DNA of 64,000 nt, from NCBI GenBank assembly GCA_033439255.1, contig CM065883.1:1984001-2048000 (forward strand), in the 5' to 3' direction. Of the stretch, positions 10,112 to 61,525 are shown in pieces. The stretch's first letter is position 1. Each line of letters opens with the position of its first letter. A program made the position numbers and the translations under genes. A model generated the notes under the pieces. It saw only the letters and a program-made list of their open reading frames with translations. It made no database searches and was not told the origin of the DNA. This DNA is from Hericium rajendrae. Taxonomy: Eukaryota; Basidiomycota; Agaricomycetes; Russulales; Hericiaceae.

Positions 10112-10199
10112 CAGAGAACGTGGTAGACCAAGACAACAGAAGGGATTGCTTTGACCGCAAACTTCGAAGTGAGATGAGGGTGGCAAAAGCTATTGAGAA

Positions 10200-11770: not shown

Positions 11771-12819
11771 AAGCCATCGGATAGGGGAGAATGACTGCTC
11801 TAGGATGAGAACATAGTTGCAGCGGAAAACGATAACGAAGTCGCAAATGGCATGGCGATCGATGGGGCCAGGCGTAAGAAAGACTTGCTCGACAACTGAT
11901 CACCATGTGGAGTGCTCCGTGGGTTTCCAGATAACTGTGCACCGCACTAAAACATGCGCCGATGAACATAGTCCTTGTTCACATCTTCCAAATCATTGGC
12001 AATATGCGCTGGGGTGGGAGGAGTCGTCGTTGGTAGCCAAAATACAGGCGGGATCACTGGTGTATAGTCTGGTCTGCATGAAAATACCAGTGAAAAGAGT
12101 GGGTGAGGGAGGCTGTACACTCACCCGTATGCTCTCGTCATGACCCAGCAGCAAGCTATCCACTACGCTGTCTCCTAGCACCGATCCTCTGTGGTGGACG
12201 GATACGTATGACCAAGGCTAGCGACCTGCGTTGGACCGACGGGAAAGTGGGGGACGTGGCCACACGGGAAAGGTAGCCCGGAATCAATTCTTGACCCCAT
12301 CGCCTCCTAGTCGCGTCAAGACACATTGCGCGATATTGACGTTGACCCGAACTTGTTAGCTGGCAAAGAGAGAATACGATGCCAACGATGTCAGTGATGC
12401 CACTTGCAAGAAGACGCCCCTGAGAGCGATACGTTGCATGCTGATGGATGGTCAGGAATGCCGCCTGCGGGGGTTATCGCGTCATAAGTAGCAGATGGAG
12501 AGAATCTGACAGTTGAGGATTTGACAACTCTGACGAGTTAAAGGCGTTGGACAAGAGGCCGCAGCAGACCACAGATAAGCGGAGAAGTGGTCGAATGAGG
12601 AGAAGAAGATGGACATTGGAAGCGACACCGATTTGGAAACCGAACTCATCACGACTGTTACTTAGCGCGCGTGGTGATGTAAGCCTTCAAGCGTAACATG
12701 TAACAAACAACACTGTCATTTCATTTTTCATGCTTACGGGAAGGCATGTCGTGGACGTTGGTATGCTGATAATACAAAGACATAAATTGCAAGCGCAGTC
12801 GCATGGGCCATCGCAAGCT
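11771..12819. other. Intergenic, nothing recognised
   Basis: Composition returns to normal here, but no frame longer than about 110 codons looks like a protein and no RNA gene is visible. Confidence 0.4.
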
Positions 12820-23386: not shown

Positions 23387-24086
23387 CGTCCAGTCCTCTC
23401 CAGTCCTCGCAGTTGGTCAGCGTAGCTGCGTATCGAACGGCAAAGAGGACTAGGATCATGTGGGATATCAGTTTCATCCGGAAACGCCACCATCCCTTCC
23501 GTACTCACTAGACTACGATCCAAGGGCGAGAGAGTCAAAGAGACGATGAGAGCAAGGAAAGCACCAAAACGCCTTGGAGTGACTAGTAGTTTGGAAACCA
23601 GCTGCGATAAGGAGGTATCTGTGCTCGCTCGGTATGAGGAGCAGGAGATCGCGGACACTGGGGCCTGTGTATCAGCGCATTGGGTAGGATCTGCTTTCCG
23701 CATGTGCCACATCGTGGACGCCTGCTTGCCCGATTGTACTGGGGCAACAAGTCTACATCTACGCATCGCCGTTCATGCGTGTCTACAACATCACGTTAGA
23801 TCTTGTCTATAATTGTGTTCATTCTGAATCTGTTCTGAACGTCGTGGGATTGGCTCCAAAACAGCATAGATACAAACCAGGCAGAATTACTTCACATATA
23901 TTGCATTATCGTCGCTCAACGCCACGAGAAAACGCGGGATAGCTACATAAGCCTCCATGAGCCCACCATTGCAGGCAATGTTTTTTGAGCTTAAATTCGC
24001 ATCTTCCGGCTGCTTACTTATTGGCTGTGGCAGTTGAGAACTTTTGTCAATAGCGGACGCGCTTGAATTGCCCGTTCAGATCACTA
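23387..24086. other. Intergenic, nothing recognised
   Basis: This is the upstream region of the F-box gene and the downstream region of the family A gene A1. No supported coding or RNA feature was seen. Confidence 0.4.
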
Positions 24087-24624
24087 CTAACAAGATTCGA
24101 ATTTCTCCCCATCGACCCACCATCGCGGCCGGCAGCCCATGATCTTCGTCAACCGGTCAACTTGCGCCTGCGTAGGTCGATTGCGGTAAGTCACACCGCC
24201 CGCAGAGCATATCGACAGAATGCAAATATTGCCAAGTTGCGTGAGCGCCGGATTCGGCGGGATGGTTTCATCTCGGCGTGCGATGCGGAGTTCGAGCGAC
24301 TTGATCTTCGACTTTTTCCGGAGCATGTTTCTGGCATGGAAGATAAGTTGTAGAGAGTCGGCCTCCTCGCGGTCCGGAGAAATGAGACGGTTCCGGGCGT
24401 AGTCCATCAACCAATCATGGGTGACGTTGTAACCGTACCAGCAGAAGCGACCGACCCTTTTGAACTTGTAGTTGGAGGGAAGAGGGATGGAGATCTGTGG
24501 AGATGTCTCTGTTCTGTTCATGGCCTGGGTACAGCTCATCACGCGAGATTGGCGTCACGATGGATGAATGAAAACTTACTGCAGTGAGCTGAGAAGACGC
24601 ACTCTCCGAGGCTTCACTGCTCAT
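24087..24624 (-). CDS. Small unknown protein, family A, copy A1
   Basis: Exons 24624-24580 (45 bp) and 24524-24087 (438 bp) encode 160 residues. The family is not one I recognise. Two other intact copies (34583-35165, 51344-51880) share the exact architecture: a 15-codon first exon, a phase-0 intron and then a core. Shared motifs in A1 are WYGYNVTHDWLMDYAR, SLELRIARRDETIPPNPAL, NICILSICSAGG and the C-terminal RPTQAQVDRLTKIMGCRPRW followed by a second Trp and an acidic residue. No signal peptide or membrane segment is visible, so a soluble intracellular protein is expected. Preservation of frame, introns and motifs across copies argues that it is a functional gene. Confidence 0.7.
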
Positions 24625-25119
24625 CCTGCATGTTTGTGACCCAGTAGAAATGGTAGCAGGGATGAAGACAGGAATGAAAACAGTGTCGTGTCCGAGCCTG
24701 ATCAAGTTGAAGTTTGCTGGGCAGCTTCTTCCGGGTGTGACTACAGCTAAGGCTGCAGCACGGTCTGACGAGAGACAATGCAAGATGCTAGATACACTGT
24801 ATGGTGCCTGTAGAATAGGCCAAAGACAGCTTTTTCAATTGTCCAAACTGCTGTTGACCGGAAGGCGACAACGGGGTAACGCGGTTTGATGACGTACAAT
24901 CGGAGTATTTAATCGTGCCGTTACACTGCCGTTACCTTGGAACGATTACCGGGCCGGAGAGCAGAATCATGACTTCAGAAGCCAATCAGAACCAACATAT
25001 CATTCCAGTAGTATTGCTACATCGGCTTTGTCCTTGTTGAAGGACATCCATAATGGTGCTACAGTACAAGTACACGGCATAGTTGAATATATGTTCGAAC
25101 CTCATTTTGTCTGACCTGT
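24625..25119. other. Intergenic between A1 and the O-methyltransferase
   Basis: It holds the A1 promoter and the 3' flank of the methyltransferase. No other feature was seen. Confidence 0.4.
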
Positions 25120-33444: not shown

Positions 33445-34582
33445 CGCGACGATAAAAACTGCCCAAACGGCGACGTTGGTGTCGGTGGTGGAAGGTGTGC
33501 GAGGGCAGATAATGTCAGAACGAACATAACTGGTACCTTTATAAGAAAAACAGTCAGCAATGAAAGGCACATTTCAAATTCTGGCTTGGATTGAGAGGGC
33601 ATGAGGCAGCTTAGGATTATCCGGAGTCTTGGAGACGCATGGTCAGACTCGTGTTGAATTTCATAAAATTCACGACACAAAGTCTTTTGTTCTTTGCTTC
33701 TTTGCGCTGCGAGGGCGAGGAACGCCGGCTAAAGCATTCGGGCAGATCTCCAGGAGCATAAGGAAATGCGCAATTGTTTAGTCTAGGATCATATGGAAAG
33801 CCACTGTACCATTTGGGCACAATGGGCCAGAGGTTACAGCGCCGAATTTCCACAGCCGCACCCTAGATTACAACCGATCGTACATGCCCCATTAGCACTT
33901 CTTAGCTTGAGACAAATAATACGAACCTTACTCAAACGAAGCATACCAAGTTCAATCCTTCCTGTACATAAAAGCACCTGCAGAAGTCTGAGATGAGTTT
34001 GGCTGCGGGAATGGATGATCGACAGCAATGGCGCACGGAAAAAGCATTTGCATGATGCGTGAATGCGTGACATGTCGAACTAGGTTGAAGTCTTAGACTA
34101 TTTCAGAGCGGACAGCGTTCGCAAGGCCTTTCCTGTGCGGTGTGCGGCTGCCGGCACAACTTCGAAACTTCAGAGCACCTCGAAGCACCCGGCAACGACT
34201 TCTAGCAATTGGAGAACAATGGAAGACAACAGAAGACAATGGATGATGAGACCATCAGTGGGACATTATCGATGGTTGCTATGGCCAGAGAAGCCCCGAG
34301 CCTATTGTTCTGAGTGTAGACAAAAGAGAATAAGTACGAACCTCAGATTTGCCCGAAGATCCAGGACTTCAAGAAGTGTGAAGTACTTACGTAATAGACA
34401 ATCCGCCGTATCCACGTGATAGATGCGTGGAACCTCTGGAACCTAGGCCGCGTAAGCGGCACATCATGCTTCGCCGTAAAGCTATAAGAGTGCATGGGCT
34501 TGTACCGATTTCCGCCACCCGTCGAGAACATCTCTTTACATCTACCATCCTATCATCTTATTCTCGTCAATAAGCTTTCAGC
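33445..34582. other. Shared upstream region of the B1/A3 divergent pair
   Basis: A 1138 bp region separates the two start codons. TATA-like boxes occur on both sides (33543-33538 minus, 34483-34488 plus). No convincing gene lies inside. Confidence 0.5.
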
Positions 34583-35165
34583 ATGACATCCGAGGCTACT
34601 CGAGCGCGTACATCTGACTATCTAGCTGTACGTCCCAATTGAGATACTGCGCTGATACCATTTCGCTCACGATCAGCTCAACCATTCGTAGGTCCCGGGA
34701 CCTACCCGACGCCCTGCTGCCCAGCGTCCCACTCCGTTTGATTTACCGTTGCCAGTCAACTATAAACAAAGACAAACTCGCCAGTACTGGTGGTATGGGT
34801 ACAACGTCGGGCACGACTGGCTGATCGAGTACGCGAGGCAAAGAGACCCGAATCCCGATCCCAACGACACGGATCTAACCCTGCTCATATATGCTCGAGA
34901 CCTGCTCAGTTCGTACACTCGCATCAAGACACTCGCGATAGGCACAGCGATCAGAGATGAGAGCGTGCCGCGGGATGCTGCGCTCTCGTTTGACGGCTAC
35001 GTCGCCATCCTGGCGATTTGCTCGTCTAGGCGGGAGTCTTATTACAGACGGCCTACGCAGGCGCAGGTCGACAAGCTCACGCAGCTTTTGGGGTGCGAGC
35101 CGCGATGGTGGATTGACGAGGAAAACCCACTGCAGTATGGGGCCATTGATCCGGTGGTCGGGTGA
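34583..35165 (+). CDS. Small unknown protein, family A, copy A3
   Basis: Exons 34583-34627 (45 bp) and 34692-35165 encode 172 residues. The core motifs of family A are intact: YWWYGYNVGHDWLIEYARQR, LAIGTAIRDESVPRDAAL, VAILAICSS and RRPTQAQVDKLTQLLGCEPR followed by the paired tryptophans. The N-terminal part of exon 2 is proline-rich and longer than in A1 and A4. TATAAG at 34483-34488 is about 95 bp before the ATG. No targeting signal is visible. Confidence 0.68.
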
Positions 35166-35666
35166 TAGATCTTGAATCAGAGCAGTTCTCAATGCGGTTG
35201 TACAATATCTATGTAAACTCTCCACGGCACAGATTGCAGTATCGAAATTTATGGTGGATTATAGAAGGTTTGAACTTTGAACCGCCCTAATGACTCTGAG
35301 ACATATTTGAGACGAGTTTCGCCAGCTGCCGGAAACGTTCGAACTCCATCAGGTCCTAGGTCATCCACACCTGCGGCGGAGCTGAAGATTGCCCGGCGAT
35401 GGTGTGATTGGGTACTCGGGCCCACGAGCCAGACTCCGGATGAGTCTCGCCGGACAGGCTATTGTCAGTCTGTCTCTCCCGTTCTCGCTGTGTCAGTTTC
35501 TCTGCTGTTATCCATACAGTTCATTCCTGACGACTTCGAACATTCCGTCGAGATTTGCAAATGATTCGGCGCACTGTCTGGCCTTGAGACTTTGCATGGT
35601 TCCTGTACATATCCTGTTAATGAAGAGGCGGGATGATGATACCCGACATACATACCATGGTCGAGG

Positions 35667-38652
35667 TGCTGAGCATTTTACTGCCGATAGTTCCCTCCTC
35701 GTGAGTACGAGAGAAGGCAGACGTGTTTCTTGCGCTGAAGCGAGGCATAAATTTACAAATAACACTTCCATTGGTGCGCATCGCGCTACCGTACATCAGG
35801 CCACAAAGCGTGTGATAACGAGCAACTGGTACTACTATCCGAGATACTGACAGAGAGAGGAAAAGGTAAGGCATAGACGTGAGGACAGGGCATAGGACAA
35901 AGCACAGAGACAATGAAATAGGGATAACTATAAAGTCCGAAGCCCGCGCAGTATGTCGCAGGGCTAGTCGCTCGGGGCGTGCAAAACGAATGAATAAATA
36001 AATTCGGGGGTCGTCGGGTCGCGTCGCACACTATCGGGCGACGGGTTGGCCAGTCCGGCTGGCAGATCACTGAGTGTAGAACTCAGGAGTAGCCTGGTCC
36101 ATCTCGGCGAGCCAGAGAGCCACCTGCTGCTCGCTGACGTGCAGCTGAGCAGCCAGCTCGGACAGGGTCTGCGAGGCGGCGGGCTGGAGCTGCTCGACTC
36201 GAGGGGGAGCGTACTGGTCGTAGGTCGCGTTGAAACCGAACGTCGGCATCGAAGGCTGAGCCAGAGGCAGAGCGTAGCTCATCGACTGGGAGACGGCGCC
36301 GTTGTAGGAGATCGGCGCGTCTTGGAACATGGCTGCGTAAAAGCTCGCCTCGGGGGCGGAAGCGGCCTGGACAGCACTGTAGAGTGCCTGAGAGTAGACG
36401 TCCGCGCCAGTCCAGTTCTGCGCCAGGATGGGCGCAGACGAGTTCATGCCGTAGCAGTTGTTGTTCTCTTGCTGGACAAACGAGGCCCAATCGCCGTCGG
36501 TAAGGCTGACCTCGAAACCGCACATGGCGTCACTGGCAAGGAAAGGCGGGCCCTGGGGCATCGGAGAGTCCAGCATGCTCACGTCAAAGTTGTTCCAGGA
36601 GCTAGACGAGGCAGGGCTGCTGGCAGTGGTGGACGAGCTCGAAGAGTAGGACAGGCTCGGGGCATCAGCGCTCGGGCTGAGAAGCGGGAGAGTGCGCAGG
36701 AGCTCCGAGAGATCCGAGAGGGCAGAGGACGAGAAAGCATCGTTGGACGGGCCGTAAAACAGCCCAGCGTCGGTGAAGGCGCTCGAGCTCTCCTTCGCGG
36801 TCTTCTTCGCCCTCGCAGCGCTCCTTGCTGCCGGTGCAGGAACACCGTATGGCGACGTACGCCTCTCGTCTCGTCTCTCCGCACGTACGGCAGTCGACGG
36901 GGTGGCCTTGGATGTGCCCTTCTTGGACGCGCTCTTCTTGCCGCCCTTGATGGGTTTGATCTCCAGGTAAGCCTCGGTGTGGTGGGGTACATGCCCATGC
37001 TCATTCTGCCTGTGACGGCTCAGAGACGACGCGTCGGCGAACGATAGGGTGCAATCCAGGCAGTGCTCGGTCCTCAACTTCGAGCTGCATATTATCGCCA
37101 AGGTCAAACAATGTCAGTCGCAGAAACAAGAAGACGTACTGCGTGTTGCCGTGAGGCTTGAGCGCAGACCTCTGCAGGCACGAGAAATCGCACCCGGGTT
37201 CCTCGCAGTAGTATCTAGTGGGACGTCAGGGTGAAGCGAATCCACGAAAAGTCAAGGCGGCGTACCGAAAGGCGCGGGAATCATGCGTCTTCATGTGACG
37301 AGGTAGGTCAGTCTTGCGATTGATGCTCGTTCCGCAGTTAGGGCAGTTAACTCGTTCCGTCTTGAACGGCTTTGGGGAGGTCCTCTTGGACTCGCGCTTG
37401 AACCAAGTGGTCAGTCCAGTGAAAGACAAGGTAACATTGGGAAATGAGCTACCTTCGATGTCCGGGTAGGAGCCATGGGAGTAAACTGCGTTGGGATGAT
37501 GAGGTTCAGAGAGGTAAGATGGGATGCAAAAGCGAAGAGATGAAGTCCTTGGAGATGGGTGCTCAAAGGGATGGAAGTTGTCAATGCAATCCCTCCCTGT
37601 CGAAGCAGCCCATTAAATACATGGACAGACTTTGCTTCTCACAATGCCACTCAGCCTCACCTCCAGGCCACTTTGATTGTACGTTCACTTTGATGCCCTA
37701 ATGGGGGGAACAGAAGAAGAAGCGTTGCCTCCCTTAGCAGCTTTGCCATGATGGCAAACACGAGGCGTGGCGCCCACCAGGACCGCTTTGCCATCCACAG
37801 CATCAGCTTTCCGATTATGGCGCGTACGATCGCTGGGCGAACGCCCGGGAGATCGGCTGGTAACGGCGTAGTCAGGGACAGGAAAGGAGGACAAAGCAGA
37901 AGGAGGGGACGGACTCTCCCGTCAGGGGGACAAGCGCCAGCAATCATGGCTCCCGAGCGTGTGTGTGGCAAGCCGATGTCCGCGCGGACCCGCCGGCCTG
38001 ATCTCTGACGTCGATACCAACAAACAGATCGGGGCATCACTGGACAAAGGACGCCCACAGGGCAAGACAAGGCCGAAGCATTGTACCGGCATCGCCCCCG
38101 AACACAGACAGAGCTTGGACCGTTGATTGTCGCGCGGTCTTCGCGGTGCGCTGAGCACGTGACCGCGTCATCGCGTTGTGATTGGCCGTCGGAGGGTAGT
38201 ATGCGTACACCTGGCACGCTGAGCACCGCCCTCCATCGACGTAGTACTAGAGAAGCAATGGCACAGATACACGTCGAAGTATGGCGCGAATATGGAAGCC
38301 TGGCATGGGGAGCGTCAGTTCAAATCAAATGATTAGGCACACCTGCATCGAATGGGCGAAATATCCGTGGACACCCTAAACGTTTCATTTTCCAGAACTT
38401 CTGAACAAGGGCAAAGCGCTGCGTATGAGTTAAATCATGGCCACGGGCGCTTTCCTGCCAGCGCGAGGAGAAGAACCCAGATACGCCGTCAGGATATTCG
38501 GTACACGCCCCTCCGCCGCCGCATGTAACGGGTAAGTCCGCATGAGAATAACAGGGTCTCACTTTCCTGCGCTTCTGATGGCCCATCGGATATATGTTCC
38601 AGTTTGAAGTTCGTACTACGTATCTGAATATTAAGTTCAATCAACGGCATTT
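35667..38652. repeat. Left arm of a large inverted repeat
   Basis: The sequence 35667-38652 is repeated as its reverse complement at 39737-42716. The outer limit is set where similarity stops after GCTCAGCA (right-arm reading), and the inner limit after GGCATTT (left-arm reading). The inner 900 bp are identical apart from a single-base length difference in a G run (near 37925). The outer 1 kb carries many substitutions and a 12-bp coding difference. Confidence 0.93.
36067..37476 (-). CDS. C2H2 zinc-finger transcription factor, left copy
   Basis: Exons 37476-37453, 37396-37266, 37214-37140 and 37084-36067 encode 415 residues. Three C2H2-like fingers lie in the N-terminal quarter: CPNCGTSINRKTDLPRHMKT(H), CEEPGCDFSCLQRSALKPHG and CLDCTLSFADASSLSRHRQN. 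A basic GGKKSASKKGTSK stretch (likely nuclear signal) and a serine-rich, acidic activation-type region follow. The C terminus is a conserved helical tail (LSELAAQLHVSEQQVALWLA). Targets are unknown. It is duplicated in the right arm (411 residues) with nearly identical fingers and a more divergent tail. Confidence 0.88.
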
Positions 38653-39736
38653 ATTGACCTGCCTTGGTTTGGTCTGTCTAGCATCCAGATTTGAGCTGGT
38701 AGAGCCACGCTGATATTGCTCAGCATGAGTATCGCAACATAAACTGACCTAGAGAACCCTGAAGTATTGGAGTCATTGAACGTCGAGTGCAAGTTGAACG
38801 TAGAAGTAGAACAACGCAAGTCGGCGTCTTGCGGGATCTGGTGTCCGGGGTACGTAGACGGGACCTCGAGAACACATAACGGCATCGGTCCAACTTGCGC
38901 ACAACGTTGCCAACAGCGAGCAGCATCGTTTCTACGTCTTCCACAACTACAGCCTCATCGACGACGGCATCGCAGACCGAGCTCAAGGCCAAAAAAGTGC
39001 CCATTGCTTGGAGAGACCAGCGTTCTGCGTATGTCCATCTCCGAATGCATCTCGAAGCTCACTCACAATTGTCTACGACACTGCTCGTGCTACCGACTGC
39101 TTCCCTGCCTTACTTGCATACTCCGCCTACCGTTTTCTGAATCTGGGGGAACAAACCAACCTGGTACTTCCTTCGAATGTCTGCCGAAAGGATAAATATT
39201 ACCTGCCGTGGGAGTACGAGATGAGAAGTATGTCTCACTTTCTACGTATATTCTGTGCTGTGCTGAACAGCGACTATCTAGGTGCCAATACGAACATGTC
39301 CCCTCATGTTCAATTTATCAGAGATCTATCTTCCAACGTGTGTTCCAATTACATTCGCCGAGATCCTCTCGAAGCAGAAGCAGCAGGGGACACTCGCCAA
39401 CATACGCGTACCATATCACGGACATGTCCTCCAGCTTCTGGGTCGTCCCGGTTATGTCGCATAGGACTGGTTCGCGCTGCATGTTAAGTGGTCTGAGCAT
39501 TGCGTTCGATACGACGAACCTGGTGCTCGGGTCGTCGGTGCCCGTGATGGGCGGACGCGCGACGAGCACGAACGTCAAGCGGTTGAGAGGCATGCCGTGC
39601 AGCGAGGCGCTACCGTGCTGGACGCGCGCCGCGCAGATCGAGGCCCAGTAGATGGTGACGTGGTTGACGGAGACCCACTCGTTGAACTGCTCATACTCCT
39701 TCATCCGCACTTCCTTGGAGCTGCTGCCGCTCTGCG
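38653..39736. other. Spacer of the inverted repeat (1084 bp)
   Basis: Unique sequence between the two arms. Its right third holds a minus-strand gene fragment. The rest has protein-like stretches in several frames but no continuous gene that I can defend. Confidence 0.6.
39381..39736 (-). pseudogene. Gene fragment truncated at the right-arm boundary
   Basis: A GC-rich, coding-like minus-strand stretch reads MKEYEQFNEWVSVNHVTIYW, then ASICAARVQHGSASLHGMPL, then RLTFVLVARPPITGTDDPST, about 110 residues in one frame. Its upstream continuation is cut exactly where the inverted repeat begins (39737), and downstream it loses coding character near 39380. The family was not recognised. It suggests the duplication junction cut into a pre-existing gene. 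Confidence 0.4.
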
Positions 39737-42716
39737 AAATGCCGTTGATTGAACTTAATATTCAGATACGTAGTACGAACTTCAAACTGGAACATATATC
39801 CGATGGGCCATCAGAAGCGCAGGAAAGTGAGACCCTGTTATTCTCATGCGGACTTACCCGTTACATGCGGCGGCGGAGGGGCGTGTACCGAATATCCTGA
39901 CGGCGTATCTGGGTTCTTCTCCTCGCGCTGGCAGGAAAGCGCCCGTGGCCATGATTTAACTCATACGCAGCGCTTTGCCCTTGTTCAGAAGTTCTGGAAA
40001 ATGAAACGTTTAGGGTGTCCACGGATATTTCGCCCATTCGATGCAGGTGTGCCTAATCATTTGATTTGAACTGACGCTCCCCATGCCAGGCTTCCATATT
40101 CGCGCCATACTTCGACGTGTATCTGTGCCATTGCTTCTCTAGTACTACGTCGATGGAGGGCGGTGCTCAGCGTGCCAGGTGTACGCATACTACCCTCCGA
40201 CGGCCAATCACAACGCGATGACGCGGTCACGTGCTCAGCGCACCGCGAAGACCGCGCGACAATCAACGGTCCAAGCTCTGTCTGTGTTCGGGGGCGATGC
40301 CGGTACAATGCTTCGGCCTTGTCTTGCCCTGTGGGCGTCCTTTGTCCAGTGATGCCCCGATCTGTTTGTTGGTATCGACGTCAGAGATCAGGCCGGCGGG
40401 TCCGCGCGGACATCGGCTTGCCACACACACGCTCGGGAGCCATGATTGCTGGCGCTTGTCCCCTGACGGGAGAGTCCGTCCCCTCCTTCTGCTTTGTCCT
40501 CCTTTCCTGTCCCTGACTACGCCGTTACCAGCCGATCTCCCGGGCGTTCGCCCAGCGATCGTACGCGCCATAATCGGAAAGCTGATGCTGTGGATGGCAA
40601 AGCGGTCCTGGTGGGCGCCACGCCTCGTGTTTGCCATCATGGCAAAGCTGCTAAGGGAGGCAACGCTTCTTCTTCTGTTCCCCCCATTAGGGCATCAAAG
40701 TGAACGTACAATCAAAGTGGCCTGGAGGTGAGGCTGAGTGGCATTGTGAGAAGCAAAGTCTGTCCATGTATTTAATGGGCTGCTTCGACAGGGAGGGATT
40801 GCATTGACAACTTCCATCCCTTTGAGCACCCATCTCCAAGGACTTCATCTCTTCGCTTTTGCATCCCATCTTACCTCTCTGAACCTCATCATCCCAACGC
40901 AGTTTACTCCCATGGCTCCTACCCGGACATCGAAGGTAGCTCATTTCCCAATGTTACCTTGTCTTTCACTGGACTGACCACTTGGTTCAAGCGCGAGTCC
41001 AAGAGGACCTCCCCAAAGCCGTTCAAGACGGAACGAGTTAACTGCCCTAACTGCGGAACGAGCATCAATCGCAAGACTGACCTACCTCGTCACATGAAGA
41101 CGCATGATTCCCGCGCCTTTCGGTACGCCGCCTTGACTTTTCGTGGATTCGCTTCACCCTGACGTCCCACTAGATACTACTGCGAGGAACCCGGGTGCGA
41201 TTTCTCGTGCCTGCAGAGGTCTGCGCTCAAGCCTCACGGCAACACGCAGTACGTCTTCTTGTTTCTGCGACTGACATTGTTTGACCTTGGCGATAATATG
41301 CAGCTCGAAGTTGAGGACCGAGCACTGCCTGGATTGCACCCTATCGTTCGCCGACGCGTCGTCTCTGAGCCGTCACAGGCAGAATGAGCATGGGCATGTA
41401 CCCCACCACACCGAGGCTTACCTGGAGATCAAACCCATCAAGGGCGGCAAGAAGAGCGCGTCCAAGAAGGGCACATCCAAGGCCACCCCGTCGACTGCCG
41501 TACGTGCGGAGAGACGAGACGAGAGGCGTACGTCGCCATACGGTGTTCCTGCACCGGCAGCAAGGAGCGCTGCGAGGGCGAAGAAGACCGCGAAGGAGAG
41601 CTCGAGCGCCTTCACCGACGCTGGGCTGTTTTACGGCCCGTCCAACGATGCTTTCTCGTCCTCTGCCCTCTCGGATCTCTCGGAGCTCCTGCGCACTCTC
41701 CCGCTTCTCAGCCCGAGCGCTGATGCCCCGAGCTTGTCCTACTCTTCGAGCTCGTCTACCACTGCCAGCAGCCCTGCCTCGTCTAGCTCCTGGAACGACT
41801 TTGATGTGAGCATGCTGGACTCTCCGATGCCCCAGGGCCCGCCTTTCCTTGCCAGTGACGCCATGTGCGGCTTCGAGGTCAGCCTTACCGACAGTGATTG
41901 GGCCTCGTTTGTCCAGCAAGAGAACAACAACTGCTACGGCATGAACTCGTCTGCGCCCATCCCGGCGCAGAACTGGGCTGGCGCGGACGTCTACTCCCAG
42001 GCACTCTACAGTGCTGTCCAGGCCGCTTCCGCCCCGGAGGCGAACTTCTACTCCGCTATGTTACAAGATGCGCCTGTCTCCTACAACGGTGTCGCCTCCC
42101 AGTTGATGGACTTCGCTCTGCCTTCGATGCCGGAGCTCGGTTTCAACGCGACCTACGACCAGTATGCGCCCGCTCAAGTCGAGCAGCTTCAGCCCGCCGC
42201 CTCGCAGGACCTGTCCGAGCTCGCTGCTCAGATGAACGTCAGCGAGCAGCAGGTGGCTCTCTGGCTCGCCGAGATGGACCAGGCTGTTCCTGAGTTCTAC
42301 ACTCAGTGATCTGCCAGCCCGACTGACCAACCCGTCGCCCGATAGTGTGCGACGCGACCCGACGACCCCCGAATTTCTTTCTTTATCTGTTTTGCACGCC
42401 CCGAGCGACTAGCCCTGCGACGTACTGCGCGGGCTTCGGACTTTATAGTTATCCCTATTTCATTGTCTCCTTGTGCTTTGTACTATGCCTCGTCCTTACC
42501 TCTATGCCTCATCCTTCTCTTCTCTCTGTCAGTGTCTCGGATAGTAGTACCAGTTGCTCGTGACCACACGCTTTGTGGCCTGATGTACGGTACCTTGCGT
42601 AATGCGCACCAATGGAAGTATTGTTTGTAAATTTATGCCTCGCTTCAGCGCAAGAAACACGTCTGCCTTCTCTCGTACTTACGAGGAGGGAACTATCTGC
42701 ATTGAAAAGCTCAGCA
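39737..42716. repeat. Right arm of a large inverted repeat
   Basis: Reverse complement of 35667-38652 with the same limits. It contains the second zinc-finger gene, transcribed outward, and about 1.2 kb of its upstream DNA, which is identical to the left arm next to the spacer. Confidence 0.93.
40912..42309 (+). CDS. C2H2 zinc-finger transcription factor, right copy
   Basis: Exons 40912-40935, 40992-41122, 41174-41248 and 41304-42309 encode 411 residues. The fingers and the serine-rich first half are the same as in the left copy, with one Asn-to-Asp change before residue 260. Differences accumulate toward the C terminus (for example QDLSELAAQMNVSEQQ for QTLSELAAQLHVSEQQ) and four codons are missing in the region ending FALPSMPELGFN. 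TATTTAA near 40771 may serve as the TATA box. Both copies have intact frames and splice sites, so both are probably expressed. Confidence 0.88.
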
Positions 42717-43006
42717 GTCTTCGTTGAGCCAAATGGGCGCTTATCCCGGCCCGGCCGCCTCGGCGACACTCTGCCAAAGCGGCTTGAAAGCCTATATACT
42801 GGCATCGTTTCTACCAGCCCCTCTTGTCCTGTCGTTTCCCTCATCGCTAATAATCTGCATCTCATACACAATTGCTACACATATTGAAGGCGATAGCGAC
42901 AGGAGCTCTACAATTCTCCCCTAATCCACAGGTGCTAGCCATTTCAAACGGCCCGTTTGACAGTCGTTTGACGCGTCATGTCGAGCTCAGCCAATGTATC
43001 TACTAC

Positions 43007-45592
43007 ATGCGGCTCCCATATAGCGAAGAACACAAGAAAGGGAAAGGTCACGGATCAGGGGATGAATGTCTCCCAAATCTTGACTGTCTGCCGGTTGAAC
43101 TTCTCGCAACGATCCTCTCATATGCTCGATCACCGAAGGATGTCCTCGCAGTCGCGCGCTGTAACAAGCATCTTTATGCTACCCTCCTCAACCCAACAAA
43201 TGTTTGAGTATGGTGCAACGCGAGAAAGGAGTGTATCTCTGGCCCGATCCTCCGCCGCGGATGAACGAGGCTGCGTTCGTGTTCGATGGTGGGCCGTGCG
43301 AGGTACGTGCTGCGTTGTCTCTCCTCACTCTGATGAATCGGTGAATGGTGCTCGTTGTGAAGATCTGCAAGAAATGGACAAAGACTATGTACGTGTCTTC
43401 CGCCCTCCGGCTTCGCCTCTGTGGAGACGTGCGTCCCTTTGTTCTTTCTGCCAATTACAGGAGAACGGGTATCTAGACGTTTTATTGCCACAATCCAAGT
43501 GCATATCTGTTTATCCTGGGCTTACTGTACATTTGTGATTTTGTCAGAAGCGGACGTTCATGCACGGGACTTTCAATAAAGCTGAAGAACACATCCAGAA
43601 ACGGCCTGTACAACTAGAAATAATGACCTATGTACGTGTAGTCAATCCAAACTTTTTCGTCGAATAACTTGTATCCTGACAATACCTAGATTGAACCTCT
43701 TCTTCCGGGTTAGAAAAATGTGCGTGTCGACGATACCGATGCATACACGCATTCTGATCTTATCAGGGTTGCAGATCGCGCAGCCGCCTGGCTAAGCGCT
43801 GTTGATGAGTACAACAAAGTCATCCGCGTTGGAGAAGGTCTCGTTGAGTATCGGGAGGTAGACGAAACCTTACCCCTCACACCAGTCGCTGATTTCCCTC
43901 TGGCAGCGACATCAAGAGGAGCAACGCCGGTTGGAACCATTGATGACGGTGAGAGTCTGGTTCAGCTATGTCATTTGTTGCACTCATTGATTGACAGTCG
44001 TTTTCAGTTTTACAGGCGCCTCGTCGCCTGGCGCAAAAACCGGGAAATCCTCTACGCTACTGTCAAAATCGAGAATGGCAATCTGTTAGTCGATGTTGAG
44101 CTCATCGCCCGATACGTTTGTGACCCTTATCTGTATGTCATATAGTGGAAAGGCAAGAGCTAGTGCCGCAGGATGGACTCCAAAGGATCTCATGGACATG
44201 CCGTCCTTCGGCTCCTTGTTCAGAGCATACTGCAATAGTCTGGAATCACTGTCTATGAGAGGTTAGTACTGAGTCTTTTCCAGCATGACCTGATCCACCA
44301 TCTAACACTAAGCTATATTTCTTAGATGGGGTGCAATTGAACCTCAAGTTCGGCTGGAGGTCAGGATATACGCCCGTCGAGAACGTCGGTCGAAGGAGCA
44401 AGGCTCTCAGAAACGGTGTCAGGACATAGGACACCATTATCAGAGGCTGCTGTCAAACCCGGACAAAATTGTGGGGCACGACGTTGTTATCCCTTCTCTT
44501 ATCGGATTCCGCCGCCTGTCCATCATGCCGCTTCTGCGCGACAAAGAAACGTCCGCCTCAGAGGGCCTTCGGACCGAGCTGAAGCAGCCCGCTATATTGG
44601 ATCTGCTGTGGAGCGAACTGACGACGTGAGCTGCGACGGCGAAGGGTGAGCTGGCAAAGGTCTGGGTTTGCCCACATCCCGTCCACCGCTTGACCCCGCG
44701 CTTTATTTGCACCAGATGCAATGGGTGTCCCAAAAATATGCGAACGAGGGCTCATTGGACTTCATGGGTACCTGCAGGCACGAATGTGTCGGCCTCTCGA
44801 AGAAAGAGCAGAGGAAGGAGTCGAGCGCATGGAGTCTTGGCCGGTCCGTTCCTGATCAGAAGGTGTGTTTCGAGCTGCCACGCGAGCCATCACACGGATA
44901 TTGGTTGCCACCTCGTATGGATCGTCATATACTCAGGCTATGGACGTTTTCCCTCAAGCTTTGGTGCTCAGTAAGACGGATGCAGAGGATGATATTACCG
45001 AGCACAAACTTGGGCTTCTTGGGCCGGCTTTCCTCTGCAAGTCATGCCCGTCCCCTATCATGATGGACTACACCTGTCTTGTGCGTGTTCACTCGTTCAC
45101 ATGTGCTGTAGTACCTGATCACCGGTTCTTCTTCCAGGCCGGCCACAGCAAGCATCACGAAAGCATGCAACTTGCCCTCTTAACTCTGGAGCAAATGAAT
45201 CCGCTCACTTTTGGATATATCTGCGGGTCGTTCGCCGAATGGATGAGCTCGGCTCCCGAGGCCAAGGAAGTCCTCACATCAAAGACATTCTTATGTCGGC
45301 ATCGCTCGAATCATGGTCAGGCAGCGCATGCGCCAGCCGACGATGCGGGTATCACATGTGCAGCGGACCACACGTCGTCAATGACTGCCAGCAGCACCAA
45401 GACCAACCTCATGAGTTCGGGTAGGATGTTCTCTCACGTTAAGAGTAAGTACGTGATGGGTCCGTTCGATCGGACGAACCGCTGATCAATTTCTATCATT
45501 CTAGACATGGAATTGTACGTATGGACGACGAGGACTTTAACCGAGACCCTACCGCGGCCACCCACGCAGAGCAAGCAGGAGCAGCCTTCTGA
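43007..45592 (+). pseudogene. F-box protein with C-terminal zinc-binding region, probably damaged
   Basis: A typical Agaricomycete F-box gene can be followed: F-box LDCLPVELLATILSYARSPK plus VARCNKHLYATLLNP (43080-43200), PPPRMNEAAFVFDGGPCE, then ICKKWTKTMYVSSALRLRLC, a helical middle (VADRAAAWLSAVDEYNKVI), GWTPKDLMDMPSFGSLFRAY, and a C-terminal C/H-rich end (FLCKSCPSPIMM, then FSHVKSKHGIVRMDDEDF) stopping at 45592. An in-frame TGA follows LLNPTNV, a frame change is needed before PPPRMN, and another near 44140; no good introns remove them. It may be a recent pseudogene, or I have missed unusual splicing. Confidence 0.6.
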
Positions 45593-46301
45593 AGAACGTG
45601 GGTTGTGCGGCGGGATAAATCGATAGCCGTGGAAGGCGAAAGCCTGCAGAAGTAATATCTATCGTGGGAGATTTTTTTCTACTCGTAGCTGAACGCCAGC
45701 TTCTTGAAATCTAGAAATTATGGTATTGAAAGCGCTTTTGGCCGTGTGCCGCCGAAGAACGGCCAGATATGGTGAATGTTGGTAGCGGCGTGCTATCAAC
45801 CCCAATTGGAACAAGAGTCGTCAGCTTCTCAAGTGTATGCGACTGATTTAGTGTTCTCTTATTTGACGTTCCAGACTATCGCAGGCCTTCTTTCGTTCAT
45901 GCAAATTTTCGCAGGCATGCGGCGTTATCGCGGTGATCACACTAGCCATACTAACACACCTCCAATCAGCGTCGTCGACAGAAGTGCTGCACACCACAGC
46001 AGACTTGCCAGCAATATCAGAATAATGAGCTTCGTTCGGTACGCATACTGCTCTTCTCGTCGGCTGCATCTCCCGTGACCAGTCCTGAAGCCCATCCATT
46101 TGCTCAGGCACTGGCAATTGATCTTGCCTTGTATCTCGGAAGCATGCGCTACACGGAATTCTGGGACGATCCACTGCACTGCGCGAACGTGTCTAACGAT
46201 CTCTGGCTATTAATATGAGCTTGGCAAACGTCGGGTTCGTAGGCTGCTTGGTCTCTTCCGCTGTCCATTTCGCCCTCGCCAGTGACTGACTTTCGTGCTG
46301 A
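45593..46301. other. Intergenic, nothing recognised
   Basis: Upstream region of the GH47 gene. Short frames here lack protein-like composition. Confidence 0.4.
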
Positions 46302-48735
46302 ATGATGCGATCTCAATACTTGCGCGTCGTAGGCGTAGCGCTGCTCTGGCCTTCCCTTGCGCTCGGAGCGAATATTCAGAAGTCGGGAATCAAATTGCCC
46401 AGTGATGCTGCAGTCCACAAGCAGGCCACGAAGGATATCTTTGTCGAGAGCTATCAGGCTTACAGGTGATATACACAGTGTCCCCTGCTTCATGCGCCTT
46501 GACGTCTCATTTTTGATGGCAGAAAGTTCGCTTTTGGCCATGACGAGGTAACTCCTATAAGCCAGTCATTCTCCGACCCTCGCAATGGCTGGGGTGCGAG
46601 TATCGTCGATGGTCTGTCTACCATGGTATGTCTGTAGAAGTCCGCGGCTCGCACCCTCGACTGATTTTATAATTCTCCCCAGCATATCATGGGTCTCTCT
46701 GTACGTCCCATCGCATCGCTTTCCCTTCTCGTGTGAGGCATCAATCAAATCGTGGCAGGATTTCTTCAATGAAGGACTCAACTTCTCGAGGAGCATCAAC
46801 TTCAACCAGTCAAACACACCGGACACCGTCAGGTGAACGACGTACAATCTAGAAGTCCTTTCGATGTTCTTAACGCCGTACGCCTTCACTCAGCGTCTTC
46901 GAGAGCACGATTCGTTACCTCGGGGGCCTTATCAGTGCGTGGGAGCTCAGCGGAAGGCAGCCTCAGAACTTCTTCCTGGTGGAGAAGGCACAGCAACTTG
47001 CTGATAAGCTGGCTTTTTCCTGGGTCGGCGTAAGTGCAGGATTTTGTGACCGGAGACGTCGATTTTTCAACACACGCACAGAGCAATGCCATACCTTTTG
47101 GAAACATTGACTTCTCGGAAAACTTCCCTACCGAGACGACTGTACGTCATATCCTTTCACGTCTGGTGAATGTATTGAGAATTCTTCCAGAACAGTATAG
47201 CAGGAGCCGGGACGGTCAGTATTTGGGTTACTCTCGAGCGCTTCGTAGCTGACGTTGCAATAGCTTACCTTGGAATGGTCCAGGCTTAGGTCAGTCAAGC
47301 ATATTCTGTCGAGTAACGGACCAGATTGACTCTCTATCAGCGTGTACACAGGCAATGATACCTATCGGAAACTGACGGAAGGATGCGTCAAGCAGATTGC
47401 AGCGCAGGTATGTTCGTTAATTCTGTTTCCGCTTCGCAAGGCTGAAACGTCCTGTCGGCAGCCTGACCCGTTACCAGGTATGGGTCATGGACGAACCATT
47501 CAAGCTAGGTTGTGACTTCTGTATGCAGGTCTTCCGGGACAAGTGGTAGATCCCGCAAGTGGCACGGTCGTTGACTCTTATGTCGTCAGTATTGCCAACT
47601 TCCAAATGTCAATTGGATTGACGCTTTCTTCTCACCATAGACATGGGGTGGAGGTTCAGACAGCTACTTCGAGTACCTCATCAAGTATGCACGCTTGTCG
47701 AACACAGCCGATGACACTTTTGCAAATACTTGGAGGACTGCTGTTGATTCGTCCATCAAGACCCTACTCAAAGTCTGCCATCTTCATATTTCTATATACT
47801 GTTTCTAAGCTCTCCCTTTATGCAGACCTCTACGGTGGGAAATCATCTCTATCTCGCTGACTTCGATGAGAGTCGTACTATTCGTCACGTCGGCTCTCAC
47901 TTGGCTTGTTTCTACGCCGGCAATTGGTTGATGGGTGAGTGATATGCGAGTGTCTAGATGCCTGCAGTCTCTCATATCTCACTGCAGGTGGAAAATTGAC
48001 CAACAACCAAACAATCGTCGACATCGCTCTCGAGCTGAACGATGCCTGCTGGAACACCTACGCAGGCGATGCGTTCGTACTTCTTCGCTCTCATCATCCG
48101 ACCCGTCTCACCACCCCACAGCACCGGCATCGGTCCCGAAGGCTTCGCCTTCATCTCATCTGACGGCAACTTCACCGGTGGCGGTGGCATCTCAGCAGAG
48201 CAGCTCGCATTCTACAATGAGCATGGGTACTACATCACGAGTTCGGACTATATTCAGCGCCCTGAAGTGCTTGAGAGCAACTTCTACGCGTGGCGCGTCA
48301 CGGGCGACGTGAAGTACGTCGAACGCGCAGCAAGCGCTGTTGCGAGCTTCCAGAAGTTCCTTTCGACACCCACCGGGTTCGTGGGGATCAATGACGTGAA
48401 CAATGTGAACACGACGCTGATCGACGATACGGAGAGCTTCTGGTTCGCGGAGGTGCTAAAGTACCTGTACCTCACTTTCGACGACCCTGAGACCATCAGC
48501 CTCGACGAATGTACGTCTCAAGCCCATACCATCTTATGCGCATACTCTGAAGCACCTTCGTGCAGGGGTCTTCAACACGGAGGGACACCCCTTCATCGCG
48601 CCCCCGGCCAAGCCGGTGTACGGTACGGGGATCAACCCCGCAGGGCCCGTTGCGCCTACAACTGCACAGTCGGGCCCGCGCCCTGCGGTCAGCCCCGACC
48701 TGGATCCCGCTGGTGTGAAAACCATGGGCTTGTAG
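46302..48735 (+). CDS. Secreted/ER class I alpha-1,2-mannosidase (GH47)
   Basis: Sixteen exons: 46302-46465, 46523-46625, 46683-46700, 46759-46832, 46894-47029, 47082-47141, 47191-47214, 47264-47289, 47341-47407, 47462-47477, 47529-47584, 47641-47772, 47826-47934, 47988-48072, 48122-48510 and 48566-48735, summing to 542 residues. It trims alpha-1,2-mannose from N-glycans. It opens with a signal peptide (LRVVGVALLWPSLALG). GH47 landmarks: FAFGHDEVTPISQSFSDPRN then GWGASIVDGLSTM, ESTIRYLGGLISAWEL, TWGGGSDSYFEYLIKYARLS, HLACFYAGNWLMGG, RPEVLESNFYAWRVTGD, TESFWFAEVLKYLYL and VFNTEGHPF. Two cysteines (EGCVKQ, DACWNTY) match the conserved disulfide. The start of exon 4 (46759 rather than 46731) is the least certain choice. 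Confidence 0.9.
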
Positions 48736-49063
48736 AGTGTGGAGTGCCGCGCGTGTGTTTCTGGTGTTGGTTCTAGGTGTAAACATCGCCTCGGGCAATG
48801 GAATGTTAGACAGTGTCAAGAGCTCGTTTCTTAGTCATGGAGCCATATTTTTCAAGTGTTAGGGCAGAATATGAGGTACTTATGTCTTGATCTGGAAGAG
48901 CAGCTGAAGCGGAAGAAAGACAGGTCTCACGACTATTTAAAGAACTAAAAGTCATATATTCATACAAGAGTTAACGAATCACAGTTCTCCACTTTAATTG
49001 CACCTTCGTCGCGACCAGCCGTTGCATCCACCGTCCTGAACCTCGGCCTTCCAACGTTGACAT
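48736..49063. other. Convergent intergenic region
   Basis: It lies between the 3' ends of the mannosidase and B2. No feature was seen. Confidence 0.4.
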
Positions 49064-50592: not shown

Positions 50593-51343
50593 ACATGAAG
50601 CCGGTTGGCAGAAAATTTTGATAGGCCTCCACCGGATATATCGCCGGAGATGGAGATGTGAGATCGTGATAAACAATGTAAAAAAAAAAAACTCACCAAC
50701 GTCTACAAGATCGCATGCCGCTTGCAAATCTAGTGGTGAGTCCAAGATGAGTCAATTTGGCAGCGGCACTGACGAAAGTCACCGCTTTGATCGGATAAAA
50801 CAATGGTCATTTCTCTCAAGATTGCCTGCCACGGGAAACTTGTCTGATAGTTTCGTCAGCGGTTAAGGCTCTCAGCAGCTTACAACACTTACCCGCGTCG
50901 TCCATCATTGTGTTCCAGAGACGGTCACGGATAGCCGACAAGATTTACGTTAGCATCGCCAGGGCTCGCGTCGAAGAGGGGACAATCAACTTGTGCTAGT
51001 AAGTAGACCACTAGGCTATCCGACTCAACGTTCCACGAGTATTCTGTGGTTGAGGATCGCCAGCCTAGAAGACAATAGGGGAACAAAGGAGTCGGAGTTG
51101 ATCTTTACGACGTTCTAGCCTTGTGACTGATAGATCTGCTAAAACGCATTGTTCATTGTTCCAACGTTCATGCGTTCATGGTTGTGCGATGTGCATTTGG
51201 AAAATCCTTCGGACCGTGCCGAGCACAGAGTATGATTACATAATATAGAGGTACTGCTATAAATCGACAGCCTGTTGAGCGTAGGTCGGCTCGCCCTTCT
51301 CGTTCCCACTCCAGAGCATCTTCATTATTCTCAAGCGTGCAGG

Positions 51344-51880
51344 ATGGACAGTCAAGTTTCACAGAGCGCATCTTCGCAGCTCCCAGTAGTAAGTTTCAGT
51401 CGTTCATTGTGATCTCATTTCGGCGTGTTGAACTACTCTCAGGCCACGCCCAGGACACAGATTCCTCCACAAATCTCCGTTCCTCTCCCCGCCGACTACA
51501 AAACGATCCACCGTTTCTACTGGTATGGGTACAACGTTGGCCACGACTGGTTAATGGAGTACGCCAGGAAGCATCTCGGGCCTGAGCGCAGCGCGAAAGT
51601 CCGCCCCATCCAACAGCTCTCCTACGCCAAAAATCGGCTCAGGCGGAAGACGGGGATCAGAACCCTCGCACTTTCCATCGCACGCCGAGACGAAACCACT
51701 CCTCCGAATCCGGCTCTCACGGTTATGGGCAATATCTGCATTTTGTCGATCTTTACTGCGGGCGGCTCGTCTTACCGCAATCGCCCTACGCAAGCGCAAG
51801 TTGACCAATTGACGAAGATCCTTGGCTGCCAGCCACGATGGTGGGTTGATGGGGAGACTATGGAATCGTATTACGAGTGA
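51344..51880 (+). CDS. Small unknown protein, family A, copy A4
   Basis: Exons 51344-51388 (45 bp) and 51443-51880 (438 bp) encode 160 residues, with both exon lengths identical to A1. Motifs: PPQISVPLPADYKT, FYWYGYNVGHDWLMEYARKH, LALSIARRDETTPPNPALTV, NICILSIFTAGG and RPTQAQVDQLTKILGCQPRW followed by Trp and Val-Asp. TATAAA at 51258-51263 lies about 80 bp before the ATG. It is closer to A1 than to its fellow pair member A3. Confidence 0.7.
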
Positions 51881-52482
51881 TATGGATGGGCGAGATCATT
51901 GGACCTTTGGTTAACATCGGAGTGGGGCAGCAATTCTGCAACTAGTGTACTATTATATATGGAGACGATGTCTATCACCCTTATTCCTCTCAGATTTTAC
52001 CGTTGTTTGCTACGTTTGTCTTATCGTGCGCAGCTTCCCCTGGTTTAATCGGGATCGTTTTAAGCCTTCTTCCCCCTTGTTCGAGGATGCGAGACATTCA
52101 GCCGACCTATGTCTTTGGGTTGAACAGTGTGGAAGCTTCGGTATTCATCAGGGAAGACTGGTTCTTGTGACATTATATTCGTGACCCCAGTCTCGCGATT
52201 CTGGTCCGTGCTTCATCCGTAAGGCTTGGTGCCACACTCCCAACATCAGTCATTGCATGTCAAAACTGCCAGATCTCATAGATATTGCAGCGCTGCGCAT
52301 ACCTACACACGCCGACAGTTGCTTAGCATTTGATGTATCACGTTAAGCAAATCTGTGGTATTGACTTCGAGAGTACCACTCATTTCCCAGTACTATCGCT
52401 CTATCTTACCCTGCGAGCTGATCATGTATAGAGTATGAGTATTCATTAAGCAGTAACAGGATGTAGAAAGCCTACTGATGCG
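51881..52482. other. Intergenic, nothing recognised
   Basis: Convergent region between A4 and the cysteine-rich secreted protein gene. No supported feature. Confidence 0.4.
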
Positions 52483-59200: not shown

Positions 59201-61525
59201 CCCGTCATTCGGAGACATATCCGCTACCGGATTCATGCGACTGGAATAACATTTCGGATCCGGTTTGTGCTGTGTATTGCATTTGGATTCCACATTGACA
59301 AAAATGTTGTAGGACTTGTTAGGTCGCATGAGGACGTTGAAGATTTGCTTTCCCGTCCAAAGTCGTACAGGCTTCCAAATCGTTGGGGGAGGTATATCGA
59401 TTTGAAGGTCCGCGTCTGCGAAATACGAGCAAATCTGGGTGAACTGGGAACGGTCAAAGAATTGATCGCGGCGGGAGAGTAGGTAGGAGGCTGTGATGAA
59501 ATCCTGGATAGCGGCAATGACTGGTTCACCGTTACGTGGAGTGACCATGTTGAGCTTGACGCTCATAAGCTCCAACGCCTCTGTACGGGCCTCCTCCGTT
59601 TGTGGAACGTCTATGATGATGTCAGAGATATAATCCAATTATTGTCAGGAGTACTTACGAAGATTCATTTCATCACCATCGAAATCGGCATTGTAAGGAT
59701 TGCAGACACACTCATTCAGGCGGAATGATCGCCACGGCCTGACTTTGACCTATACATGCATGTTAAAAAACCTGAGGTGCATGGTTGTAATTTCGAAAAC
59801 TTACACGATGGCACATAATGGACAACTATAAACATGATAAGTACGACATTTGGGAGGATTTCGCATTTACGAACCTTGTGCAAACTAGGTTGTCTGTTGA
59901 AAAGGACAACATCTCCATCAATAATGTGCCGCTCAACGACATCTCCGTATCTTAGTCCATCGGCGATCGCAGTCCTATTGCCAAACTTGAGATACTTCTT
60001 GAAACCACTGCTACCAGCAGTAACATAATTTGCTCCTGGATGAACGTCGCAGCCATTCCGAACTGCCTTCTGCAACTTTTCGATGTTGAAAGTGGTCACG
60101 CGTTCCGGGTACGTCAGGATCTTGGCTACACGCTCCGGTACGGCGACTTCGTCGATGCGCAAGTTGGGATCGGGGGAGATGACGGTTCGTCCTGAGAAAT
60201 CGACACGCTTTCCTGAGAGATTGCCACGGAAGCGACCCTGCTTGCCTTTGAGACGCTGGCAGAAGCCGCGGATGGGTTTTTGGCCCATTTGCGAGGGAAC
60301 ACCTGGAAGCTCAGAGTTGATGTACATGGCCACAGAGAGCTGGAGGAATTCCCATTGTTCCTGAGAGAGTATAAGTTCCGCCGCACGATGAGTGGCATAT
60401 ATTTGAGTACTTACCATAAACTGAGGAGTAGGTGCGCCCTTGGTCAGTCCCTGACGGATAAGTGCATTGGTGAAGACTATCTCGGTCAGCTTGACTGTTA
60501 GATCGTCTTCGTTGGATGCGCCGTCCTGGGCAACTGAAGGTCGAATGCAAACTGGAGGTACGGAGATGTACTGCCAGAGATATTCCTCTGGTCTGTTAAA
60601 TTCGGGACGCAGTCCGAGGAGCTCGCAGTCCTATCAAACAATGTCAGATTGCAGACGTAAATATTTTGACTCCGTTCACATACTTCATCCGATATTCGTC
60701 TAAACAAGTCCAATACCTTCAAGGGGTTCAAATCCTCCTGCGCGGCCTTGTTGATGTACATACCGAGCTCCTTCTGACCCTCGACAGCAGCAGCAAAAGT
60801 CTTCTTCCACTTCTCTAGCTCATCAGCGGTCTTCTTGGCCCGAAATTTATCATGAATGATCTTGAGAGCTCCTGCTTTTTTGACCGCCCCATTAGTCGAC
60901 GTGCAATACTGGCAATATACTGTTTTCCGAGCTGCAGTGTTCACGGCTTTGATAAGAGTCATTCTCTGGATGTTTTCGAGGTTCGGCCGGCGAAATCGCT
61001 TCAGGTATGTACGACGATCAGGCTCGTCCAACATGACGCGTGCACAGCTCTGTGATAATGTTCAATAACCAGGAGACACCAAGTCCCGAGCCCACTCACC
61101 TTGCATATGCACTGGAGAATGCTAATGGTATGTTTGAAATAACCGATGTGGAAGACGGGTACCACAAGTTTAATATAGGCATAATGCCCGACACAGTCGA
61201 CCGAGTTAAGTCCACAGGTCTCGCAGAAGGCTCCTTTGTCAGATGTTCCCTATAGTTGTACGTTCAGTCGCGCTTCGCAGTGAGAATGAGGAACAACGCA
61301 CCAGCCTCCTGTCGAGGACACCATCCTTCACTGGCGCTCTTTCAGCCGAGGTATAGAGGTCACGATGGGTGACCTGGAATTCCGATAACTTGACTACATC
61401 CTGAGCAGTCAATGTGCTAAATTGAATTTGTGTTCTGGAGTAAAGTCTTAGCAGCCGGCCTGCCATCTATTAAAACAAGTTGCTTACATGACCTTCGGAG
61501 CATTATGGGATACCGTCTCCTTCAT
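56286..61525 (-). CDS. RPC1: RNA polymerase III largest subunit
   Basis: Twenty exons: 61525-61488, 61434-61302, 61249-61100, 61049-60684, 60630-60415, 60360-59875, 59825-59805, 59749-59659, 59610-59035, 58971-58687, 58631-58204, 58150-57904, 57841-57734, 57674-57427, 57374-57288, 57232-57164, 57113-57003, 56952-56829, 56776-56416 and 56322-56286. They sum to 4182 bp, 1393 residues, the usual size. It synthesises tRNA, 5S and U6 RNA. Landmarks: [20 protein letters not shown], a CETCG zinc motif, [20 protein letters not shown], the catalytic [10 protein letters not shown] (59663-59692), and [20 protein letters not shown] with [14 protein letters not shown]. Pol III rather than Pol I or II is indicated by the N terminus, the lack of a heptad tail, and [20 protein letters not shown] near the C terminus (yeast RPO31). 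Confidence 0.95.

Follow-up and report, generated by a model that had tools for sequence, protein, structure and literature searches.

Ectopic gene conversion between inverted repeats in yeast is a non-reciprocal copying of DNA. The palindrome described here resembles that process in a tract that breaks off abruptly inside a gene after what appears to be non-reciprocal copying, and differs from it in that the other edge of the tract lies where the arm homology stops, at a truncated junction. Large palindromes on mammalian and willow sex chromosomes are described as undergoing arm-to-arm gene conversion (PMC8981503, PMC7023750). As far as these accounts go, the likeness lies in gene-bearing inverted arms around a spacer, apparently kept alike by recombination, whereas the arms in the present case are much smaller (3 kb) and only their inner two thirds are homogenised. 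The kind of process, going by the account of the mammalian sex-chromosome palindromes, is already known (PMC8981503), and a literature search found no fungal case resembling the palindrome in the sources it reached, although one may still be in print. Fungal C2H2 zinc-finger regulators include c2h2 of Schizophyllum and Agaricus, in the description available (PMC7005679); the likeness of our genes to them rests on the C2H2 zinc-finger domain type, and the family studied here differs in comprising six full copies on one contig. The DNA comes from Hericium rajendrae, of which a published assembly (strain NPCB A08, BioProject PRJNA1018320) is described as 46.77 Mb in fifteen pseudochromosomes and four contigs, built from Nanopore and Illumina reads (PMC10608310).

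A palindrome with a zinc-finger gene in each arm

The window, i.e., the whole stretch of 64,000 nucleotides that was analyzed (C6:1984001-2048000), contains two long inverted arms around a spacer, the layout of a gene-converting palindrome. An earlier note had given 2986 and 2980 bp as the lengths of the arms and 1084 bp as that of the spacer, and these figures proved exact. Specifically, the left arm (WL) occupies positions 35667-38652 on the (−) strand and the right arm (WR) positions 39737-42716 on the (+) strand; blastn recovered them as a single inverted pair (35667-38652 / 42716-39737) of 2,993 alignment columns with 97.0% identity and 5 gap openings, and a repeat search found the same inverted pair in six ungapped pieces (I1-I6). 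A pair of this length and identity leaves chance out of consideration. The genome searched comprised 46,767,965 bases in 19 contigs; the arms of a second pair found there are called PL and PR, and two single copies S1 and S2.

As the note had also held, each arm carries an intact C2H2 gene transcribed outward from the centre. Both genes have an open four-exon frame and no internal stop. The left copy is predicted at 36067-37476 (−) and encodes 415 aa; the right copy, predicted at 40912-42309 (+) and encoding 411 aa, has exons placed by eye, using GT/AG boundaries and reading frame, at 40912-40935, 40992-41122, 41174-41248, and 41304-42309. The introns of both arm genes measure 56, 51, and 55 nt, and all start with GT and end with AG. 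Introns, together with F-box-like and Rpb1 matches elsewhere in the window, identify the DNA as eukaryotic. The protein of the right copy, the only one run, matches PF00096 (Pfam zf-C2H2) with 28.3 bits against a cut-off of 25.2, and the finger region of the left copy is identical to it. Three C..C..H..H fingers were read by eye in all six full copies, each of which has an open frame with exons placed as in WR. The arm gene, a fungal C2H2 gene, probably encodes a transcription factor. A sequence search of the PDB returned 38 sequences, whose names point to C2H2 zinc-finger proteins; Rfam gave no matches over 34500-43800 and ARAGORN no tRNAs over the window.

Residues 1-241 of the WL and WR proteins are identical, and 25 alignment columns differ beyond them, four of which are an indel; the two proteins are therefore not exact dosage copies. 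The dN/dS ratio was 0.28-0.36 for PL-PR and the four between-pair comparisons and 0.44 for WL-WR. S2 gave 0.30-0.41 when compared with the four palindrome copies, and S1 gave 0.61-0.81 when compared with the remaining five. By these values, most of the copies seem to be maintained, whereas S1 may be under relaxed or diversifying selection. By eye, S1 (C6:2517077-2520320) also shows changes at zinc-finger helix positions, as if binding were drifting.

Step in divergence between the two arms

For a divergence scan, both window arms were aligned with the four other full copies. The inner part of the palindrome, from 36655 to 38652 (−) in the left arm and from 39737 to 41733 (+) in the right, shows no substitution in 1,997 aligned bases and a single 1-bp homopolymer indel (at 40461), and it covers the promoter, the three introns, and all zinc-finger codons. 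The outer parts, 35667-36654 (−) of WL and 41734-42716 (+) of WR, differ by 70 substitutions in 976 aligned bases. The best changepoint for WL-WR is abrupt and falls at 41733, inside the last exon, with a dlnL of 79.7 against no more than 10.2 in 300 shuffles, and none of the 14 other copy pairs (12 scanned with shuffles, 2 without) has its best changepoint there. PL-PR has one at 40389 (72/639 substitutions, then 131/2219; reached by 0 of 300 shuffles), and several pairs with S1 or S2 shift within the last 81 bases. The longest WL-WR run of matching polymorphic sites spans 422 of 687 sites (no more than 130 in 2000 permutations); over the whole arm, long match runs reached p < 0.05 in two of the 14 other pairs, WR-PL (0.004) and S1-S2 (0.04).

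WL and WR are also alike at all of 1,175 bases upstream of the gene, 162 bases of intron, and 76 synonymous sites in the finger-coding part; upstream, other copy pairs differ by 8-12%. Outside the same cut, identity is 92.8% for WL-WR, 92.6% for WR-PR, 93.2% for PL-PR, 91.6% for WR-PL, 90.5% for WL-PR, and 89.4% for WL-PL, and in each of the 14 other copy pairs the identities on the two sides of the cut lie no more than about 4 percentage points apart. Because the outer WL-WR identity is about that of separate paralogues, the arms would be old and their inner part made identical long after the split. As is typical of a gene-converting palindrome, the arms are far more alike than their age would lead one to expect, though in the inner two thirds only, and the near-identity over the whole arm that also marks such palindromes does not extend to the outer part, which stays at 92.8%. 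Of the three options that the note had offered (selection for dosage, a recent event, and gene conversion), the data favor gene conversion, or related copying between older arms; the step from 0/1,997 to 70/976 speaks against a single recent duplication of the whole arm.

A second pair and further copies on the same contig

Some 480 kb off, the contig carries this gene in another head-to-head arrangement, the second pair, whose left arm (PL) is at C6:2497985-2501474 and whose right arm (PR) is at C6:2504192-2507752. PL and PR are 88% identical over the blastn alignment with flanks and, in the region of the window arms, 92.8% identical in the inner part (144 substitutions in 1985 bases) and 93.2% in the outer part (59 in 873). 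The single full copies are at C6:2517077-2520320 (S1, 2.517 Mb) and C6:2609796-2613009 (S2, 2.610 Mb), and there is a gene fragment at C6:2598915-2599362. All six full copies are on this one contig; another contig holds distant matches only.

The two pairs have in common a homologous spacer with inverted arms on both sides. In the window, the spacer (38653-39736; 1084 bp) consists of a stretch at 38653-39392, ~83% identical to the inner flank of PR and joined to its arm likewise, and a 345-bp gene fragment at 39393-39737 (−), 90% identical by blastn to a longer copy of that gene. The spacer of the second pair contains that longer copy, with an open frame of 265 aa; a neighbouring frame matches the MYND finger weakly (E 0.0013), its 19.1 bits falling short of the cut-off of 22.7. 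Relative to the second pair, the window spacer is missing ~490 bp before the 345-bp fragment and ~1.4 kb after it. WR starts directly in the spacer-gene fragment, with an overlap of about one base. Four weaker relatives of the fragment (31-41% identity) are found at C6:2430852-2433718 and 2495347. Since the second pair has the longer spacer gene and the window a shortened remnant, the 2.50 Mb locus is more likely to be the source, with the window pair derived from it.

Arm ends, flanks, and history of the window pair

Homology of WL to other copies runs past both of its ends, into the spacer on the inner side and, on the outer side, as far as 35513 and then, beyond a gap, 35476. The outward extension (35476-35666, −; blastn and flank alignments), which matches the second pair and is missing from WR, is made up of 35513-35666 followed by 35476-35518, the two being separated at the second-pair locus by ~245 bp that are missing here. 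The outermost piece, 35476-35518, matches PL at 2497978-2498020 with 95% identity, and the spacer side of WL is contiguous as in PR. The inner end of WR is abrupt at 39737, where the five other full copies share further homology. A mobile element with fixed ends found no support as an explanation of the repeats, as the ends of homology vary among the copies, though WL and PL share the outermost 43-bp piece.

The left flank occurs once in the genome, short matches and the extension of the arm aside. To the right, a block of ~6.1 kb (42728-48831) starts 12 bases past the last base of WR and is similar (83% and 87% in two matches) to C13:1874297-1880500 (−). With this duplicated block nearly abutting the palindrome, the window locus is a patchwork with at least two duplicated blocks. 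An open frame within the C13-like block, at 42872-43204, has an F-box-like match.

If the whole palindrome was copied, the orientation of the spacer would make WL correspond to PR, and WR to PL. Site patterns among the four arms, counted as within-locus : orthologous by spacer : cross, were 97:0:0 inside, which follows from the identity of WL and WR and shows nothing more, and 19:3:3 outside; the tree of the outer part also places WL with WR (support 96% and 91%). The outside pattern and this tree fit either repeated conversion in both pairs or two independent formations of a second arm. The spacer joins WL as it joins PR. When the three sequences WL, PR, and PL are compared, the inner flank is most alike between PR and PL, and the outer flank (no outgroup) between WL and PL; the outermost 30 bp of WR also resemble PL (a run of 21 sites, p 0.004). 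With WL PR-like on its spacer side and PL-like outside, the spacer may have been inverted in the past by crossing-over between the arms.

Explanations for the identical inner arms

The reading that we favor, and consider quite probable, is that WL and WR are old inverted C2H2 paralogues whose inner 2 kb were recently homogenised, as seen in one assembly, probably of a dikaryon. An artefact of assembly or correction could imitate this outcome if self-correction or a wrong repeat path had equalised the inner arms, or if an inverted chimeric read had been incorporated, and the published description of the assembly gives some ground for concern, with Nanopore reads processed by NECAT, Racon, Pilon, and purge_haplotigs from a strain read as a dikaryon at 3.61% heterozygosity (PMC10608310). 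A fold-back chimera, however, would leave the arms uniformly identical, and the uniform identity near 100% that marks such an artefact is absent, the outer arms differing at 70/976 bases. The second pair in the same assembly, moreover, keeps its differences (144/1985 bases in the inner part and 59/873 in the outer), which shows that such repeats were not generally flattened by the pipeline, and we regard an artefact as improbable. Even further from our expectation, and in effect ruled out by the divergence step, is a recent inverted duplication of the whole arm whose outer parts then diverged faster; the grouping of the outer arms within the locus (19:3:3 and the tree) speaks for it, yet 0/1997 against 70/976 substitutions within a single unit, changing sharply partway through an exon, would need an abrupt jump in rate at 41733, and in the 14 other copy pairs inner and outer parts stay within about 4 percentage points of each other at the same cut. 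Selection alone, holding the promoter and the zinc-finger half identical in the two arms with gene conversion playing no part, is the least credible of all, to the point of near impossibility. The coding part is moderately constrained (dN/dS 0.28-0.36 for PL-PR and four between-pair comparisons), but purifying selection is ruled out as the sole cause by the unchanged synonymous finger sites (76), intron bases (162), and upstream bases (1175), the last of which differ by 8-12% in other copy pairs.

A different kind of alternative concerns how the pair arose and is compatible with homogenisation of the inner arms: the window pair may have been formed locally, with one arm and the spacer shared with the 2.50 Mb locus, an inverted arm added, and the inner part then copied. 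We give this course substantial weight, though clearly short of even. It accords with WR being shorter at either end than the other copies and having its inner end inside the spacer-gene fragment, with the outer-part trees that group WL with WR, and with flanks lacking the orthology that a block copy predicts. Against this, an inverted arrangement around the same spacer would have had to arise twice, once at each locus, and the outer identity of WL-WR is barely above that of WR-PR (92.8% vs 92.6%).

Under the favored reading of old arms with a recently recopied core, homology-directed copying is the simplest source of a long identical stretch that is in perfect register with older arms. It would have taken place by homologous recombination between the inverted arms, as arm-to-arm gene conversion or as one-ended strand invasion with copying. 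One gene would thereby have recently taken over the promoter and the DNA-binding half of the other in place of its own, and the two C-terminal tails would have been left distinct; branch lengths gave an intermediate value for the conversion donor. With less confidence, the window pair would be the descendant of a copy of the second pair, 480 kb away, with two spacer stretches lost from the copied pair, one of them at the right inner junction. We also put forward, as a speculative narrowing that is rather unlikely to hold in full, that a single repair event produced both the identical core and the truncated junction. In that version, a break in the right arm or the spacer would have been repaired by one-ended invasion of the inverted left arm, and copying would have covered 2 kb, starting in the last exon and taking in the zinc fingers and the promoter, to be finished by end-joining in the middle of the spacer gene, with the rest of that gene deleted. 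The outcome would be two regulators whose promoters and DNA-binding domains are identical and whose C-terminal tails differ.

Together, the partial tract, the comparison pair, and the truncated junction make the locus a clear example of what is most likely arm-to-arm copying, and a compact natural case in which, by comparison within one genome, recombination between inverted copies is separable from simple recent duplication. Where paired regulators have identical promoters and DNA-binding domains, the cause may be copying rather than youth or selection, and dating duplicates by such genes is therefore unsafe. Should repair events of the kind proposed above recur, head-to-head palindromes could, in this fungus, keep one target specificity while their effector tails diverge.

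Other inverted arrangements and features

A hairpin of the form TTCATGCTGA-loop-TCAGCATGAA is present at C6:2504272-2504297 and at the same place in other copies. Its loop is reverse-complemented in PR relative to PL, S1, and S2 (the last two with a base change), perhaps through a small template-switch inversion. A tandem array with a period near 129 bp occupies C6:2489047-2491004, ~7 kb outside the second pair. On another contig, C9:1052227-1063409 carries distant zinc-finger relatives (28-53% protein identity) that lie in opposite orientation and face each other at a distance of ~4-5 kb. They are enclosed by an inverted pair of 855 columns (71%), and a further one of 140 columns (70%) lies between them. 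The 855-column pair belongs to a stretch repeated several times there, and the arrangement is possibly an old third palindrome.

Elsewhere in the window, blastn found another inverted pair at 24070-24639 / 51329-51891 (572 alignment columns, 73% identity). The GC content falls to 0.34 at 10001-12000, the other 2-kb windows ranging from 0.45 to 0.66, and part of a gene for the largest subunit of RNA polymerase (Rpb1 domains 1 and 2) is found at 59719-60630 (−).
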